Of a stretch of DNA of 64,000 nt, positions 31,259 through 57,645 are shown one piece after another (the stretch's first letter is position 1; each line of letters starts with the position of its first letter). The stretch is from Bradyrhizobium sp. 139. GTDB lineage: Bacteria; Pseudomonadota; Alphaproteobacteria; Rhizobiales; Xanthobacteraceae. A program made the position numbers and the translations under genes. The notes under the pieces were generated by a model. It worked only from the letters and a program-made list of their open reading frames with translations. It had not been told where the DNA came from and ran no database searches. The DNA is taken from assembly GCF_023074175.1 (NCBI RefSeq), contig NZ_JADPKS010000091.1:1-64000 (forward strand), given 5' to 3'.

Positions 31259-31259
31259 T

Positions 31260-31414
31260 GTCGTCCCGGGCAAGCGCGCCCCAAGCGCGCGCCGATCCGG
31301 GACCCATACTCCCAGGACAAAGTTAGGCGCGAAAGCTCAACGCCGAATCTCCGCAACCACGACTTCCTGTGGTTATGGATCCCGGATCCGCGCTTGCGCT
31401 TGTCCGGGACGACA
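31260..31414. repeat. Palindromic repeat, family A
   Basis: Begins GTCGTCCCGGGCAAGCGC and ends TTGTCCGGGACGAC, the reverse complement, with GATCCGGGACCCAT and ATGGATCCCGGATC as inner inverted arms. Between the convergent esterase and ABM-domain genes. Confidence 0.85.
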
Positions 31415-31453
31415 GCTGAGTTTGTGGCGGCGCTGTCGCCCCGGCCCTCAAAG

Positions 31454-34725: not shown

Positions 34726-34772
34726 GTCGTCCCGGATCTACGCGCGTTTGAGGCGCGCTTGTCCGGGACGAC
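34726..34772. repeat. Short palindromic repeat, family A
   Basis: GTCGTCCCGGA (34726-34736) pairs with TCCGGGACGAC (ending 34772) with a nested CGCGC/GCGCG stem. It stands between the stops of two convergent GH13 genes, so probably serves both as a terminator-like hairpin. Confidence 0.85.
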
Positions 34773-34792
34773 AGCGGAGTGTGGGGATGCAG

Positions 34793-36493
34793 CTAACCCG
34801 GATGCGCGTTGCCCCGCACCGTTTTCTCGTCGATGTCACTTCGCTTCAACAGATAATCCAGCCCGCCGACGCGGTACCAGCGATACCCATAGGGCTCCAG
34901 CACGATGCGATGCTGGCCGCGCTTGTTGGCGTGGCTATGATCTTCCGCGAGCAGGTTGATCAGGTGCTTGCCGGCGTCGCCAGGCTGCCCCGCCGAGAAC
35001 GCGATCTCGCGCGGCTTCTCATTCAGATTGTGCACGAACAGCACGGAATTGTTGCGCCAGTCGTAACGCATGATGAACACCGCGGGATCGGGCGTCGGAA
35101 TGATCGCGAAATCGCCCCAGCCGATCTCCGGCACCTCCTTGCGCATGCGGACGATACGCTCGGTCCAGTTCAGCATGGAGTTGGGATCGCGCCGCTGTGT
35201 CGCGACGTTAACGTGCTCGAAGCCGTAAGGCCCCTTGTCGATGACCGGGCACGCCGGCTTGCCGCTCTTGGTGAAGCCGCCATGCGGCTCGGTCGACCAT
35301 TGCATCGGCGTGCGCGCGCAATTGCGCTCCGGCAGCGAGAGATCGTCGCCCATCGCGATCTCGTCGCCGTAGCGGATGACGGGCGTGCCCGGCAGCGTGC
35401 ACATCAAACTGTAGGCGAGCTCGAGCCGACGGCGATCGCCGCCCAGCATCGGCGCGAGGCGGCGGCGGATGCCGCGGTCGTACAGCTGCATGTCCTTGTC
35501 GGGGCCGAAGCACTTGAAGACGAGGTCGCGCTGCGTCTTGGTCAGGCGGCCGAGATCGAGTTCGTCGTGATTGCGCAGGAACAGGCCCCATTGCGCGGTG
35601 GCCGGCCGCGGCTTGGTCGCCTTCAGTGCCTTCGCCAGCGGCCGCGAGTCGCCGGAAGCCAGCGCATAGAACAGATGCTGGTTCACCTGAAAGTTGAACA
35701 TCATGTGCATGCGGTCGGCGTCGCGGCCGAAATATTCCATGTCCGTCTTCGGCAGCACGTTGGCTTCGGCGAGGATGATGGCGTCGCCCTGACGCCATTG
35801 CATGAATTCGCGGAACATACGCAGCATGTCGTACTGCTCGACCGGCTTTTTGACTTTGGCGCCCTTGGTCGCGATCACGAACGGCACGGCATCCATGCGG
35901 AAGCCGGAGACCCCGAGCTGGATCCAGAAACCGATGATCTTCAGGATCTCGGCCTGCACGTGCGGGTTCGAGGTGTTGAGATCGGGCTGGAAATCGTAGA
36001 AGCGGTGGAAGTACCAGGCGCCCGCTTCCTCGTCGCGCGTCCAGGTCGACTTCTGAACGCCCGGAAACACCATGCCCTGGTTGGCGTTGGCGGGCTTCTT
36101 GTCGGACCACACATACCAATCGCGATAAGGCGAATCCTTCGAGCGCCGCGCCTCCTTGAACCAGTGATGCTGGTCGGAGGTGTGGTTGACGACGAGGTCG
36201 ATGATGACGCGGATGCCGCGCTGCTTGCAGCCCTGGGTGAACTCGACGAAATCGCCGAGCGTGCCGTAGCGGGCATCGACGCTGTAATAGTCCGCGACGT
36301 CGTAGCCGTCGTCGCGGCCCGGCGAGGTCTGGAACGGCATCAGCCAGATCGCCGTGATGCCGAGGCCATGCAGGTAGTCGAGCCGGCGCAGCAACCCGTT
36401 GAAATCGCCGATGCCGTCGCTGTTGGCGTCCATATAGCTGCCGACCGACAGGCAGTAGATCACGCCGTTCTTGTACCAGAGATCGTCGATCAT
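34793..36493 (-). CDS. GH13 enzyme, trehalose synthase-like
   Basis: A 566-residue GH13 protein starting MIDDLWYKNGVIYCLSVGSY, the usual opening of the trehalose synthase-like subgroup. Catalytic regions: DLVVNHTS (99-106), GFRMDAVPF (197-205, Asp201), LAEANVLPK (241-249, Glu243), RNHDEL (307-312, Asp310). The family interconverts maltose and trehalose or hydrolyses alpha-glucosides; the maltokinase fusion of some TreS proteins is absent. It is not in a glg/tre operon here. Start ATG 36493 is preferred from homology of the opening; a longer frame reaches 36787 through the palindromic repeat. Confidence 0.88.
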   Translation of the reverse strand: MIDDLWYKNGVIYCLSVGSYMDANSDGIGDFNGLLRRLDYLHGLGITAIWLMPFQTSPGRDDGYDVADYYSVDARYGTLGDFVEFTQGCKQRGIRVIIDLVVNHTSDQHHWFKEARRSKDSPYRDWYVWSDKKPANANQGMVFPGVQKSTWTRDEEAGAWYFHRFYDFQPDLNTSNPHVQAEILKIIGFWIQLGVSGFRMDAVPFVIATKGAKVKKPVEQYDMLRMFREFMQWRQGDAIILAEANVLPKTDMEYFGRDADRMHMMFNFQVNQHLFYALASGDSRPLAKALKATKPRPATAQWGLFLRNHDELDLGRLTKTQRDLVFKCFGPDKDMQLYDRGIRRRLAPMLGGDRRRLELAYSLMCTLPGTPVIRYGDEIAMGDDLSLPERNCARTPMQWSTEPHGGFTKSGKPACPVIDKGPYGFEHVNVATQRRDPNSMLNWTERIVRMRKEVPEIGWGDFAIIPTPDPAVFIMRYDWRNNSVLFVHNLNEKPREIAFSAGQPGDAGKHLINLLAEDHSHANKRGQHRIVLEPYGYRWYRVGGLDYLLKRSDIDEKTVRGNAHPG

Positions 36494-36572
36494 GCGCCGC
36501 AGCCTCGATGCTCCGCCGAGGTGCGGCGGCTGCGTGATAAGTGTCGGGGGGAGGGGAGGTTCCCGCACCGAT

Positions 36573-36755
36573 GTCGTCCCGGACAAGCGCAGCTCATCGC
36601 AATGCGTAGCGTTGCCCCGAGCGGAGCGCAGATCCGGGACCCATACCGCGGAATCGATCGGTTGCGGTATGTAGGAGTACCGAACGACGGGTCTTTGCCA
36701 AACTCCGTCCTGTGGTGATGGGTCCCGGATCTGCGCTGACGCTTGTCCGGGACGA
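36573..36755. repeat. Palindromic repeat, family A (long copy)
   Basis: GTCGTCCCGGACAAGCGCAG at the left, CTTGTCCGGGACGAC at the right, with inner GATCCGGGACCCAT and ATGGGTCCCGGATC arms. It fills most of the 336-base gap between the divergent GH13 and mmcB genes; promoters for both must lie within or around it. Otherwise nothing identified in 36494-36829. Confidence 0.85.
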
Positions 36756-36829
36756 CAGCGGAAAATGAGGCCGCAGCTTGCCTCCATCAGACGGTGTCCG
36801 CACCCAACGGAATCGGCTAACCTGCCATC

Positions 36830-37321: not shown

Positions 37322-37342
37322 CGGCTCGGCGAGCGCAGACGC

Positions 37343-37440
37343 CGTAGGGTGGGCAAAGCGAAGCGTGCCCACCGTTCAAGCCGTTCAAGATTGAAACCGA
37401 AATGGTGGGCACGGCGCTTTGCGCCTTTGCCCACCCTACG
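37343..37440. repeat. Palindromic repeat, family C
   Basis: CGTAGGGTGGGCAAAGCGAA at the left and CGCCTTTGCCCACCCTACG at the right are near-exact inverted copies. Another member is at 57543-57639. Located between convergent mmcB and regR. Confidence 0.9.
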
Positions 37441-38107: not shown

Positions 38108-39427
38108 CTATCCTATTGTTTCTTCGAGCGTCTCGATAGCCTCAAAACGCTCTCTCGGCCAGGTGATCTGGACCACGGCACCGTGGTCCGGAAAGGTCCG
38201 ATTGGTAAACGAGACCTTGGCGCCGGTGCGTTCCAGCAAAGTGCGCGCGATGAACACGCCGAGCCCGTGGCCGCCGCCTTCGTCCTGGCTGCGCCGTCGC
38301 GACAGGTAGGGCTCGCCGATCCGGTTCAAGAGGTCGGGCGGAATGCCGGGCCCATCGTCGGAGATCACAAGCTCGATGGTGTCATTGTTCCACCAGGCGT
38401 TCACCTCGACAGTGGTGCGCGCGAAATCGACCGCGTTCTCGATGATGTTGCCGACGCCATAGAGGATCGCCGGATTGCGCGAGCCGACCGGCTCGGCGAA
38501 GGCGGCCACCGCGATCCGCACCTTGATATCGACGCCGAAATCGCGGTGCGGCTCCACCACCTCCTCGATCAACTCTGACAGCTTCATGCGATCAAACGGC
38601 GCGCCGGTTGAGGAGAGCTGGGTGATCTTGCTCAATATGTCGCGGCAGCGCTGCGTCTGCTCGCGCAAGGTTTTCAGGTCGGCAGCAAAGACCGGCTCCT
38701 TCACCGTCTTTTCCAGCTCGCGCGAGATCAGGAAGATGGTCGCGAGCGGCGTGCCGAGCTCGTGCGCTGCGGCGGCGGCCAATCCGTCAAGCTGGGTCAG
38801 ATGCTGCTCGCGCGTCAGCACCAGTTCGGTCGCGGCCAGCGCGTCCGCAAGCTTGCGCGCCTCTTCGGTCACCTGAAAGGAGTAGAGGCTGGTGACGCCG
38901 ATCGCCAGCACGATCGAGAGCCAGATGCCGACGAGATAGATCGGCGGCAGCACCAGCGGATCGTCGGAATCCCAGGGCAGCGGCAGATGGAAGAAGAACA
39001 GGATCGAGGCGCAGGCCACGGCCAGCAGGCCGAGGCCGAAGGTGACGCGCGCGGGCAGCGCGGTCGCCGAGATCAGCACGGGTGCGAGGAACAGGAACGA
39101 GAACGGGTTTTGCAGTCCGCCGGTGAAGAACAAGAGCCCGGCCAGTTCCACGATGTTCAGCGCAAGCAGTCCCGCCGCCTGGATCGGCTCGAGCCGCTGC
39201 ATCGGATTGGCCGCGGTTTGCAGAGCCAGATTGAGCGCCGCCGACACGGCGATGATGCTGACACAGGGGACGATCTCGACATCGAACTCGAGCCCCTGCG
39301 CCACGATGAAGATCGCGGCGAGCTGGCCCAGCACCGCGAGCCAGCGCAACCGCAGGATCGTGTCGAGGCGGATATGTCGCTGCGCGTGGTGAAAGTCGGT
39401 ATCGGCGGTCTCGGTCATTTCGGTCAA
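38108..39427 (-). CDS. regS: Redox-sensing histidine kinase RegS (RegB/PrrB/ActS family)
   Basis: A 439-residue membrane sensor kinase. Six hydrophobic segments fill residues 25-185. The quinone-binding signature GGLQNPF is at 103-109. The H-box AAAAHELGTPLATI has phosphoacceptor His222, and the redox-active Cys of the RegB dimerisation interface is conserved (Cys261 in QTQRCRDIL). ATPase boxes: NIIENAVDFA, DDGPGIP, GGGHGLGVFIA. It therefore has both known RegB redox inputs. It sits 102 bases upstream of regR on the same strand and is divergent from an ABC exporter. Confidence 0.95.
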   Translation of the reverse strand: MTEMTETADTDFHHAQRHIRLDTILRLRWLAVLGQLAAIFIVAQGLEFDVEIVPCVSIIAVSAALNLALQTAANPMQRLEPIQAAGLLALNIVELAGLLFFTGGLQNPFSFLFLAPVLISATALPARVTFGLGLLAVACASILFFFHLPLPWDSDDPLVLPPIYLVGIWLSIVLAIGVTSLYSFQVTEEARKLADALAATELVLTREQHLTQLDGLAAAAAHELGTPLATIFLISRELEKTVKEPVFAADLKTLREQTQRCRDILSKITQLSSTGAPFDRMKLSELIEEVVEPHRDFGVDIKVRIAVAAFAEPVGSRNPAILYGVGNIIENAVDFARTTVEVNAWWNNDTIELVISDDGPGIPPDLLNRIGEPYLSRRRSQDEGGGHGLGVFIARTLLERTGAKVSFTNRTFPDHGAVVQITWPRERFEAIETLEETIG

Positions 39428-39556
39428 TCTAGCGATGCGCGGGTCCGGTCACAAACACGCTGGTTCACACTTTCAGTCTGGCTACAAGCCTCTTACATCA
39501 AGTCTTTGCATCAAGCCTTGCGCTTCACCGTGCAATGGCGGAAGAACGCCTCCAGC

Positions 39557-40360
39557 ATGACCGGGAATGCCAATGCTTCAAGTCGGCCGACTGTCGCGGA
39601 TGCCATTTCGTCCGCGGCGATCGAGGTCGACCGCCTCGTCAAGGTCTACAAGCAGACCCGGGCGGTTGACGACATCTCCTTTTCACTGCCGCGCGGCAGC
39701 ATCACCGGGCTTCTGGGCGGCAACGGCGCCGGCAAGACCACGACGATCGCGATGATCATGGGCCTGGTGCTGCCGACCTCCGGCCGGGTCAGGGTCCTCG
39801 GACATCGGATGCCCGAGGAGAGCGCGGCGGTGCTGGGGCGGATGAATTTCGAGAGCCCCTATGTCGACATGCCGATGCGGCTCACGGTGCGGCAGAATCT
39901 CACCGTGTTCGGCAAGCTCTATGCGGTGAAGCATCTCTCCGGCCGCATCGCAGAGCTGGCCGACGATCTCGATCTCACTGATTTCATCGACCGCGCCAAC
40001 GGCAAGCTCTCCGCCGGGCAGAAGACCCGCGTCGCGCTGGCCAAAGCGCTGATCAACCGGCCCGAGCTGCTCCTGCTGGACGAGCCGACCGCATCGCTCG
40101 ACCCTGATACGGCCGACTGGGTGCGGGCGCATCTGGAGCGCTATCGCCGGGACAACAACGCTACCATCCTTTTGGCCTCGCACAACATGCTCGAGGTCGA
40201 GCGGCTGTGCGACCGCGTCATCATCATGAAGCGCGGCCGCATCGAGGACGACGACACGCCGGGCGCCATCATGGCCCGCTACAACCGCACCACGCTGGAG
40301 GAAGTATTCCTGGACGTCGCGCGCGGCCGGGTGAACGGTGCGCGGGAGGTGGCGCGATGA
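39557..40360 (+). CDS. ABC exporter ATP-binding protein (ABC-2 type)
   Basis: A 267-residue ATPase. Walker A GGNGAGKT (54-61), signature LSAGQKTR, Walker B LLLLDEPTASLDPDT, switch ASHN (His replaced context 'LASHNMLEVE'). The form is of NodI/CcmA-like ABC-2 exporters. ATG 39557 chosen; CCTCC-rich sequence upstream gives no clear ribosome site, and an in-frame GTG lies about 27 bases before. Its stop TGA (40358-40360) overlaps an ATG at 40357 that opens a 49-codon repeat-derived frame leading to the permease gene. Exported substrate unknown. Confidence 0.92.
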   Translation: MTGNANASSRPTVADAISSAAIEVDRLVKVYKQTRAVDDISFSLPRGSITGLLGGNGAGKTTTIAMIMGLVLPTSGRVRVLGHRMPEESAAVLGRMNFESPYVDMPMRLTVRQNLTVFGKLYAVKHLSGRIAELADDLDLTDFIDRANGKLSAGQKTRVALAKALINRPELLLLDEPTASLDPDTADWVRAHLERYRRDNNATILLASHNMLEVERLCDRVIIMKRGRIEDDDTPGAIMARYNRTTLEEVFLDVARGRVNGAREVAR

Positions 40361-40506
40361 GCGAGCCCTCATGTTTCGGCCGTAGCCGTAGCCTGGATGG
40401 AGCGAAGCGTAATCCGGGGTTCTCGCGTCTGGATAGACTGGTCCCGGATTGCGCTACGCTCCATCCGGGCTACTGGTTGCGGCCGGGCTACGCGGTGCCA
40501 CAATGA
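40357..40506 (+). CDS. Repeat-derived 49-codon frame linking ATPase and permease genes
   Basis: Starting MSEPSCFGRSRSLDGAKRNP and ending GYAVPQ, this frame is almost entirely encoded by the palindromic repeat 40388-40473. Its ATG overlaps the ATPase stop (ATGA) and its TGA (40504-40506) overlaps the permease ATG (ATGA again). It probably has no protein function; it may relay ribosomes from the ATPase cistron to the permease cistron, which has no ribosome site of its own (GCGGTGCCACA). Confidence 0.4.
   Translation: MSEPSCFGRSRSLDGAKRNPGFSRLDRLVPDCATLHPGYWLRPGYAVPQ
40388..40473. repeat. Palindromic repeat, family D, inserted between ABC genes
   Basis: GTAGCCTGGATGGAGCGAAG at left and GCTACGCTCCATCCGGGCTAC at right are inverted copies. 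Flanking bases ATGAGCGAG (40357) and ATGAGCGGG (40503) look like a duplicated start-codon region. Relative of 84-155. Confidence 0.88.
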
Positions 40507-41321
40507 GCGGGCTTTCTCTCCACCGCGGCCTATCCATGCAGCGCATCGGCGCGATGATCCTGCGCTATTGGTACCTGCTGCAATCGTCCTGGCCGCGGCT
40601 GCTCGAGCTGCTGTATTGGCCGGCGCTGCAAGTCATCACCTGGGGCTTTCTTCAGCTTTATATCGCGCAGAATGCAAACTTCTTTGCGCGCGCCGGCGGC
40701 ACCCTGATCGGCGCCGTCATCCTCTGGGACATCCTGTTCCGCGGCCAGCTCGGCTTCTCCATCTCGTTTCTGGAGGAGATGTGGGCGCGCAACATCGGCA
40801 ATCTGATGATGAGCCCGTTGAAGCCGATCGAGTTTCTGCTGTCGCTGATGATCATGAGCCTGATCCGGCTCGCGATCGGCGTGATCCCGATGACGCTGCT
40901 CGCGCTGTTCCTGTTTCACTTCAACGTCTACGGCCTCGGCCTGCCGCTGATCGCATTCTTCTGCAATCTGATCTTCACGAGCTGGGCTGTCGGCATCTTC
41001 GTCTCGGGGCTGGTGCTGCGGAACGGACTTGGCGCCGAGAGCATCGTCTGGACCTTGATGTTCGCGATCATGCCGCTCGCCTGCGTCTACTATCCCGTCA
41101 GCGTACTGCCGATCTGGCTGCAATATGTCGCCTGGGTGCTGCCGCCGACTTACGTGTTCGAGGGGATGCGGGCGTTGCTGATCGAGAACAGCTTCCGCAT
41201 TGACCTGATGCTGGATGCGCTGGCCATCAATGCGGTGCTGCTGGTTGCATCTTTTGGGGCATTCCTTGCCCTTTTGCGCAGCGCCAAAAAGAACGGCTCG
41301 CTGCTCTCGGGCGGCGAATAA
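40503..41321 (+). CDS. ABC-2 type exporter permease
   Basis: A 272-residue membrane protein with six hydrophobic segments (the first about 37-60). The region FSISFLEEMWARNIGNLMMSPLKP is the ABC-2 permease signature, and the last helices (YPVSVLPIWLQYVAWVLPPTYVFEGMRALL) match NodJ/YadH-type exporters. Works with the ATPase at 39557-40360. ATG 40503 overlaps the stop of the repeat-derived frame; an upstream in-frame ATG at 40449 would begin inside the repeat. Confidence 0.9.
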   Translation: MSGLSLHRGLSMQRIGAMILRYWYLLQSSWPRLLELLYWPALQVITWGFLQLYIAQNANFFARAGGTLIGAVILWDILFRGQLGFSISFLEEMWARNIGNLMMSPLKPIEFLLSLMIMSLIRLAIGVIPMTLLALFLFHFNVYGLGLPLIAFFCNLIFTSWAVGIFVSGLVLRNGLGAESIVWTLMFAIMPLACVYYPVSVLPIWLQYVAWVLPPTYVFEGMRALLIENSFRIDLMLDALAINAVLLVASFGAFLALLRSAKKNGSLLSGGE

Positions 41322-41387
41322 CGTCACTTTCCCGTGGATTCAGGCTGTTTTTACCGTTCAGGCCACGTAGATGTACGGAACCATGCA

Positions 41388-41416
41388 TTGACGCAATATT
41401 ACGCATTCGTCAGTAT
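41388..41416 (+). promoter_or_regulatory. Possible sigma70-type promoter for phaZ
   Basis: TTGACG (41388-41393), 17-base spacer, CAGTAT (41411-41416), with the phaZ ATG 27 bases further on. The -35 is good, the -10 weak. Confidence 0.3.
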
Positions 41417-56565: not shown

Positions 56566-56735
56566 GGTGTCGTCCTGGCGAAACCCAGGACCCCCGCGCG
56601 AGCACTTGCTCGTCGCGATTACCCCCGACGCCGATTGTTTTGGGAAGCTGGTAATCACCGCCGTCTAACGCAGCGAAGCCTGTGGTTATGGGTCCCGGAT
56701 CTGCGCTCCGCTTCGCTGCGCTTGTCCGGGACGAC
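56566..56735. repeat. Palindromic repeat, family A
   Basis: GTCGTCCTGGCGAAACCCAG and CTTGTCCGGGACGAC ends, with GGGTCCCGGATCTGCGC inner arm like the copy at 36573-36755. Fills the gap before the membrane-protein gene; no promoter could be picked out within it. Confidence 0.75.
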
Positions 56736-56743
56736 AGATAAGA

Positions 56744-57547
56744 ATGTCCCCCGAGTTCCAAATCATCCTCTTCCTCCTCCTGCGCATGGCGATCGCGGCG
56801 GCGTTCGTCGTGACGGCCTCGATCATCACTGAACGCGCAGGGCCGGTGATCGGCGCGCTGGTCGCGACCCTGCCGGTGTCCGCCGGTCCGTCCTATGTCT
56901 TCCTCGCGCTTGACCATGACGCTGCCTTCATTGCGCAGGGCGCGCTGGCAAGCCTGCCGGTCAACGCGGCGACGATTTTCATGTGCGTCATTTATGTCGT
57001 GCTGGCGCAGCGACGGAGCCTTCTGGTGAGTTGCGGAAGCGCGGTCGCGGTCTGGGTCGTGCTTGCGTCGATCATTCGCCAGTTTGACTGGTCGCTCACC
57101 GCCGGGCTCGCCGCCAATTTGATCGCATTCGGGATCTGCATTCCGCTCCTGGCGGGCTATCGCCATGTGAAAATGCCGCTGGTGACACGCCGCTGGTATG
57201 ACGTGCCCATGCGGGCTTTGCTGGTCGCAACCCTTGTCGCGATCGTGGTCTCGACATCGGGCTGGGTCGGTCCAAGGATCAGCGGCATCATTGCGCTGTA
57301 CCCGATCGTGTTCACCAGCATCATGGTGATCCTGCATCCGCGCATCGGCGGTCCGCCGACTGCCGCCGTGCTCGCCAATTCAGCCTGGGGCCTGCTCGGA
57401 TTCGGCATGGCGATCGCCGTGCTGCATGTCGGCGCCGCCAATTTCGGCTCGGCAATCGGCCTCGGCGTGGGGCTCGCCACCTGCATCGCCTGGAATTTGA
57501 CGCTGTGGTGGAACGGGCGAAGGAAGCGGCTGGCGCAGGTGCCGTAG
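56744..57547 (+). CDS. Conserved membrane protein, unknown function
   Basis: A 267-residue integral membrane protein with about eight hydrophobic segments in two apparent halves (ITERAGPVIGALVATLPVSA near the N-terminus, WVGPRISGIIALYPIVFTSI in the second half), each with a GP-x(n)-G-A/I-L-x(2-4)-P motif, suggesting an internal duplication as in GlpM- or SMR-like small transporters. No ligand site visible. Monocistronic, convergent with mutS over a palindromic repeat. Confidence 0.75.
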   Translation: MSPEFQIILFLLLRMAIAAAFVVTASIITERAGPVIGALVATLPVSAGPSYVFLALDHDAAFIAQGALASLPVNAATIFMCVIYVVLAQRRSLLVSCGSAVAVWVVLASIIRQFDWSLTAGLAANLIAFGICIPLLAGYRHVKMPLVTRRWYDVPMRALLVATLVAIVVSTSGWVGPRISGIIALYPIVFTSIMVILHPRIGGPPTAAVLANSAWGLLGFGMAIAVLHVGAANFGSAIGLGVGLATCIAWNLTLWWNGRRKRLAQVP

Positions 57548-57639
57548 GGTGGAAGGCGCGCGCTTCGCGCGCCGTGCCCACCATCTCTCTGCGATCACCT
57601 TGTTGCGTGGTGGGCACGCTCCGCTTTGCCCACCCTACA
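57543..57639. repeat. Palindromic repeat, family C
   Basis: CGTAGGGTGGAAGGCGCG at left and CTCCGCTTTGCCCACCCTAC at right; inner CGTGCCCACCAT and TGGTGGGCACG arms. It overlaps the last bases of the membrane-protein gene and stops just before the mutS stop at 57646, a likely shared 3' structure. Confidence 0.88.
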
Positions 57640-57645
57640 GCACCG

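Follow-up and report, generated by a model that had tools for sequence, protein, structure and literature searches.

The window, that is, the entire stretch of 64,000 nucleotides of Bradyrhizobium sp. 139 DNA that we analyzed, contains two co-directional genes that encode the ATPase and the permease of a predicted ABC transporter and are separated by a palindromic repeat. The repeat is embedded in a small open reading frame, denoted here the relay frame, which overlaps the stop of the first gene with its start codon and the start of the second gene with its stop codon. The features of the junction are the following:

39557..40360, plus strand: ABC transporter ATPase, first gene; a 267-aa reading with an ATG start of our choice, ending on TGA
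40344..40349, plus strand: GGGAGG in the tail of the ATPase gene, probably serving as ribosome site of the relay start or, in relatives with a bare junction, of the permease; duplex -14.8
40357..40360, plus strand: relay start ATGA overlapping the ATPase stop (TGA at 40358-40360)
40357..40506, plus strand: relay frame of 49 codons, opening at the ATG at 40357 and closing at the TGA at 40504-40506
40387..40475, plus strand: GTAG-type palindromic repeat pair, with the arms 40387-40419 and 40442-40475 arranged head to head
40494..40497, plus strand: GGTG, a weak ribosome-site match ahead of the permease; duplex -5.3
40503..40506, plus strand: permease start ATGA overlapping the relay stop
40503..41321, plus strand: ABC-2 type permease, second gene, 272 aa (Pfam ABC2_membrane, 6.1e-9)

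The ATPase matches the Pfam family ABC_tran (1.6e-29), and its best NCBIfam match is drrA, with a score of 198 bits that is below the model cut-off of 312. The 49-codon frame with ATGA at both ends, to which the preliminary description of this DNA had drawn attention, is present as claimed; its ends read ATGAGCGAG and ATGAGCGGG, and the overlap of -4 nt at each of them is the stop/start arrangement of a coupled gene pair. Searches of both Pfam and NCBIfam with the 49-residue peptide yielded no match, and a consensus scan of positions 40200-40650 detected neither a promoter nor a terminator in the insert. The predicted fold of the segment 40340-40540 is much stronger than those of shuffled sequences (z -9.3). 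The single match in an Rfam scan of 39400-41400, to MIR1437 at 40367-40495, scored 40 bits, below the curated cut-off of 168, and was dismissed as a chance hairpin match.

The repeat pair has the organization of a GTAG-tagged REP dimer, with GTAGCCTGG... at the left arm and ...CCGGGCTAC at the right arm, and the two arms pair in the predicted fold; the family name is given here by the GTAG/CTAC tags, after the accessible part of PMC3733652, rather than by a profile. The accessible part of the same survey reports both the GTAG and the CGTC super-families of REPs for Bradyrhizobium (GTAG-3, GTAG-14, CGTC-1 and CGTC-3). A near-identical copy of the pair is located at 79-158, so that two copies were counted in the window, along with 29 REP regions, all families together, in 400 kb of a relative. 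The window also contains a second repeat family (CGCTTGTCCGGGACGACAG), in both orientations, at 31259-31435, 34729-34794, 36568-36778 and 56679-56757, and a further palindromic family (GGTGGGCACGC...) at 37341-37373 and 57609-57641 that resembles the insert found in one of the related loci (L111).

A match to the permease was identified in all 265 Bradyrhizobium genomes searched, a few of the matches being weak or partial. We took the 130 closest loci (30 + 100), of which 129 contain both genes; the remaining locus, L084, was excluded from the counts because the ATPase is absent from its contig, and at least 20 of the listed permease matches, namely those with lower identity, at contig ends or representing extra copies, fall outside this sample. 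With the addition of 60 hand-picked divergent genomes, the comparison covers 130 + 60 of the 265 genomes. One contig in the sample (G060:C16, locus L012) carries two permease copies with equal scores, about 490 kb apart. The preliminary description had recommended a search for relatives with an uninterrupted ATGA overlap, and such relatives are common: 36 of the 129 ATPase-permease junctions are bare 4-base ATGA overlaps, and the other 93 contain inserts of 31-496 nt. Among the 60 divergent genomes, 58 have the start codon within a 4-nt overlap, two are arranged otherwise, and none contains an insert. The 4-nt overlap between the two genes is therefore probably ancestral, as judged from this distribution in the sequenced genomes.

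The start that overlaps the ATPase stop is ATGA or GTGA in 92 of the 93 inserts (50 and 42, respectively). In the exception, L098, the usual ATPase stop is lost and a GTAG repeat supplies the TAG that now closes the ATPase gene; the old relay ATG is retained in this locus and begins a 305-nt open frame that extends up to the permease. According to our motif patterns, the inserts represent at least five repeat types, including two GTAG-like, two CGTC-like and others. In three loci (L047, L065 and L118), the permease start codon itself (ATGACG) is provided by the end of a CGTC-type repeat (GCAATGACG).

In 78 of the 93 inserts, as counted once four permease starts and L098 had been corrected, the frame that begins at the start codon on the ATPase stop is open throughout and ends precisely on the permease ATGA; L098 or the loci with corrected starts (L047, L065, L118 and L128) are omitted from some of the counts below, as indicated by n. 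These exact relays span 12-167 codons and come in 38 distinct lengths. Among the 15 non-exact cases, seven stop 8-33 nt before the permease (in L078, L097, L110 and L086, the relay stop is 22-33 nt upstream), five stop at +5, and three continue into the permease as an in-frame fusion. None of the 93 relay frames is interrupted further upstream than these stops near the permease start. The other reading frames of the same DNA present a different picture: across 92 orthologous inserts (15,451 nt), the relay frame contains seven stops, the ATPase frame 77 and the third frame 223, and among inserts longer than 60 nt (L098 omitted), the first stop lies more than 45 nt upstream of the permease in 0 of 89 relay frames, compared to 33 and 74 of 89 in the other two frames.

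The ribosome site ahead of the relay start is conserved: 90 of the 92 inserts counted and 26 of the 36 bare junctions share GGAGG, with a mean duplex of -12.4 in the inserts. The preliminary description held that the permease lacks a ribosome site, which has to be amended, given the modest Shine-Dalgarno-like GGTG at 40494-40497; the duplex at the permease starts behind the 93 inserts averages -6.2, against -2.2 for background ATGs. With such a modest site, some direct initiation is likely, and judging by these matches, the permease is likely translated by reinitiation that is aided by this site. The further suggestion that the two ends of the window insert are a duplicated ancestral junction did not hold up: the 5 nt that follow the left NTGA match the permease start of the same genome no better (0.357) than those of other genomes (0.361). 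The idea was rejected as lacking general support; the 12 nt before the permease do resemble the bare junction (0.47, against 0.30 for 12-mers within inserts), which the ribosome site alone may explain.

If openness alone were decisive, the three possible phases of the insert would be expected in about equal numbers. Phase 1, which brings the relay stop onto the permease ATGA, accounts for 81 of the 93 inserts; three of these 81 stop earlier. The 93 inserts are not all independent because some have common left flanks; at least 22 changes between the bare and the insert states are required on the tree of the two genes, from which the insert columns were excluded. In path-disjoint pairs of one bare and one insert locus, phase 1 was observed in 19 of 22 (p 4e-7), and in path-disjoint pairs of two inserts of unlike length, the difference is a multiple of three in 31 of 43 (p 2e-7), including 24 of the 32 pairs with differing repeat families. 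These pair tests are built on a quick two-gene tree (the first version had 34 open forks, and L096, a long branch, was omitted from the second), and any exchange of junction alleles between strains would inflate their independence.

We further searched the 36 genomes with a bare ABC junction for places at which a ribosome site is followed by NTGA and then by a REP tag. The combination with GTAG produced one match among the 36 genomes, probably by chance, and that with CGTC produced matches in 34 of the 36; from the CGTC matches that lacked a locus, 40 were retrieved, about one per apparent locus. A second junction thus came to light, between the permease and ATPase genes of an importer of the peptide/nickel type (Opp/Dpp/Nik family, with family matches below the model cut-offs). 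Among 60 hand-picked genomes, nine of which were chosen already with an SD-NTGA-CGTC match at this junction, 28 are short-spaced (24 with 14 nt, four with TGATG) and 32 contain REP inserts; in the genome from which the window derives, this junction (L271) is of the TGATG type. The relay frames of the 31 NTGA inserts end at positions from -43 to +1 relative to the ATPase start, ten of them precisely at +1. Given that the phase is not significantly enriched here (15/32, p 0.08) and that the third frame is mostly open as well, with far stops in 5 of 31, the second junction is the weaker case and would also suit an anti-polarity role of the frame.

Altogether, 69 SD-NTGA-REP sites were examined (the CGTC matches and the GTAG match), of which 19 are located between co-directional genes, some at the second junction. 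Four of these 19 are exact relays (L222, L236 and L397 at the second junction, and L229), ten stop ahead of a possible start by no more than 50 nt, and in five the frame breaks off over 60 nt upstream of any possible start, so that the relay rule is not universal. With starts of our choice, some of them uncertain (the frame of L410 stops 57 nt before the start, and that of L234 overruns the thiC start), far stops were found in 2 of 14 relays, against nine and five in the other two frames. In L229, from position 1511, a 43-codon frame made of a CGTC repeat joins a gene for an SDR-type oxidoreductase (TGATG) to a DapA-like gene (ATGA). At the junction of thiE and thiC, CGTC repeats are located within 32 nt of the first stop (L218, L225, L227, L231, L234, L394 and L408), and thiC retains a strong GGAGG of its own; in L231, the thiamine phosphate synthase is above the cut-off and ThiC is the best match on the part searched. 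A relay as the rule for all REPs was tried and rejected: 400 kb of the genome G103, with genes called by our own simple gene finder, contain 29 REP regions, 12 of them between co-directional genes, with no clear exact relay (the region at 364662 is ambiguous because the start of the next gene is uncertain).

Taken together, these observations suggest, with a probability that we put at roughly 0.8, that the repeat inserts between the ATPase and permease genes constitute a termination-reinitiation relay maintained by selection. The ancestral ATPase and permease genes would have overlapped as ATGA, such that ribosomes ending the ATPase restarted on the permease, and mobile REPs would have entered this junction many times. 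Survival of an insert would require that the start codon on the ATPase stop, which is preceded by a strong ribosome site, begin a frame that traverses the repeat and closes at the permease start or within a few bases of it. Such an insert would then act as a relay on which the ribosome terminates, restarts, synthesizes a throwaway peptide, terminates and restarts again. From the comparative pattern, we infer the translation of the relay, the restart at the permease and selection for coupling as the cause of the pattern. The proposal of the preliminary description that the insertion preserved coupling by means of an open frame is strongly supported by the comparison as far as the frame is concerned (78 of 93 exact, in several families and lengths, with no far-upstream stop); coupling as such is what these patterns lead us to propose. 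According to the accessible part of PMC10666635, coupling is efficient at overlaps or very short distances and is almost abolished at about 20 nt; these limits fit the 78 exact relays and most of the other stops, and poorly fit L078, L097, L110 and L086.

The main competing explanation would be that the insert need only be translated, which would prevent Rho from ending transcription on naked RNA, and that the permease is translated from its own ribosome site, the position of the relay stop being irrelevant. The modest but detectable ribosome sites of the permease genes, the frames that stay open for up to 167 codons and the open frames without strict phase at the second junction are all in line with such protection from polarity. 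However, any open phase would then suffice, yet phase 1 dominates both among the inserts (81 of 93) and among the separate pairs (19 of 22); moreover, the phase-0 inserts reach the permease only with a stop at +5 (5 of 5, compared to 13 of 120 other junctions, p 4e-5). Accordingly, we regard this explanation as unlikely. Far less probable still is regulation by a hairpin, in which the repeat would hide the permease start until translation of the relay melts it, in the manner of attenuation. The predicted hairpin is indeed very stable, but the predicted openness of the permease start is nearly the same with and without upstream melting (0.38 vs 0.40, n=88; 0.54 vs 0.50 in L001) and at bare junctions (0.36, n=36), and the repeat families vary between genomes.

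Chance has to be considered as well, given that REPs are often open by composition: for the 20 REP regions of at least 80 nt that a search with these inserts located in the 400 kb of G103, 50 of the 120 strand-frame readings are open, and the common left flanks of some inserts are compatible with descent from one lucky insertion. The same figure implies that the repeats are not inherently open, and the relay frame is open in all 89 of the longer inserts, whereas the other frames of the same DNA are often closed; the 22 or more changes on the tree and the 38 lengths of exact relays also speak against luck or common descent, an explanation that these data already largely refute and that we deem slightly less probable even than the hairpin. 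Finally, an open frame would be maintained if the 49-residue peptide were a functional small protein, but the frames of different genomes cross unrelated repeat families and the window peptide has no recognizable domain in Pfam or NCBIfam, which makes this the least credible of the explanations, to the point of being nearly negligible.

Mycobacterial interspersed repetitive units (MIRUs) are non-palindromic direct repeats that prefer DTGA as the insertion site. These elements are a published precedent for the Bradyrhizobium relay, to the extent that the accessible part of a review (PMC12548453, on the MIRUs of Supply et al. 1997) describes them: a mobile intergenic repeat at a start codon, with a frame of its own that is coupled at -4 nt to the gene that follows, which leaves the insertion largely harmless. 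The likeness is that the repeat occupies a start/stop overlap and contributes a frame overlapping both neighbors, exactly so at both ends in the 78 inserts. In contrast to MIRUs, the Bradyrhizobium repeats are palindromic REPs of the GTAG/CGTC type, belong to several families and reside in an alphaproteobacterium; one family replaces another at the same junction without loss of the frame, and the repeat frame that is read depends on the landing site. We do not classify them as MIRUs because they are palindromic, a feature that sets them apart from the MIRU description. Rickettsia palindromic elements (RPEs), as presented in the accessible part of PMC3733652, are likewise palindromic repeats that are inserted in frame and tolerated because the frame stays open; unlike the separate, small frame between two genes in Bradyrhizobium, RPEs lie inside a single protein. 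Termination-reinitiation at ATGA overlaps is familiar, in the accessible parts of PMC6728339 and PMC10666635, from the 4-nt start/stop overlap between genes of one complex, whereas the Bradyrhizobium junction comprises two such overlaps, one after the other, joined by a frame that the repeat provides. The REP survey in PMC3733652, in its accessible part, makes no mention of coupling and omitted REPs within hypothetical proteins under 120 aa, so that relay frames of this kind would be missed. The literature that we searched, with subscription papers mostly outside reach, contains no report of such relay frames for REPs; as far as this search extends, the points that appear to be new are palindromic REPs as putative relays in Bradyrhizobium, the succession of different families at a single junction where the frame persists, and the demonstration of the phase by statistics.

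It is conceivable, although we lean slightly against so broad a reading, that start/stop overlaps are general landing sites for REPs in Bradyrhizobium, which are tolerable through the ribosome relay; families would replace one another while the frame persists, and the surviving phases would amount to a natural experiment that reveals selection on termination-reinitiation coupling beyond shared transcription, over relays that reach 167 codons. Another possible role of the relay is to determine the ratio of ATPase to permease. Because relays are present in some sister strains and absent from others, their effect is directly testable. If the relay reading is correct, it would explain a class of seemingly meaningless small frames, of the kind that the length limit given in the accessible part of PMC3733652 excludes, and would show how parasitic repeats can settle within an operon without breaking it. 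The inserts at this junction would then provide many-fold replicated evolutionary evidence that the hand-over of ribosomes at ATGA overlaps is worth keeping.
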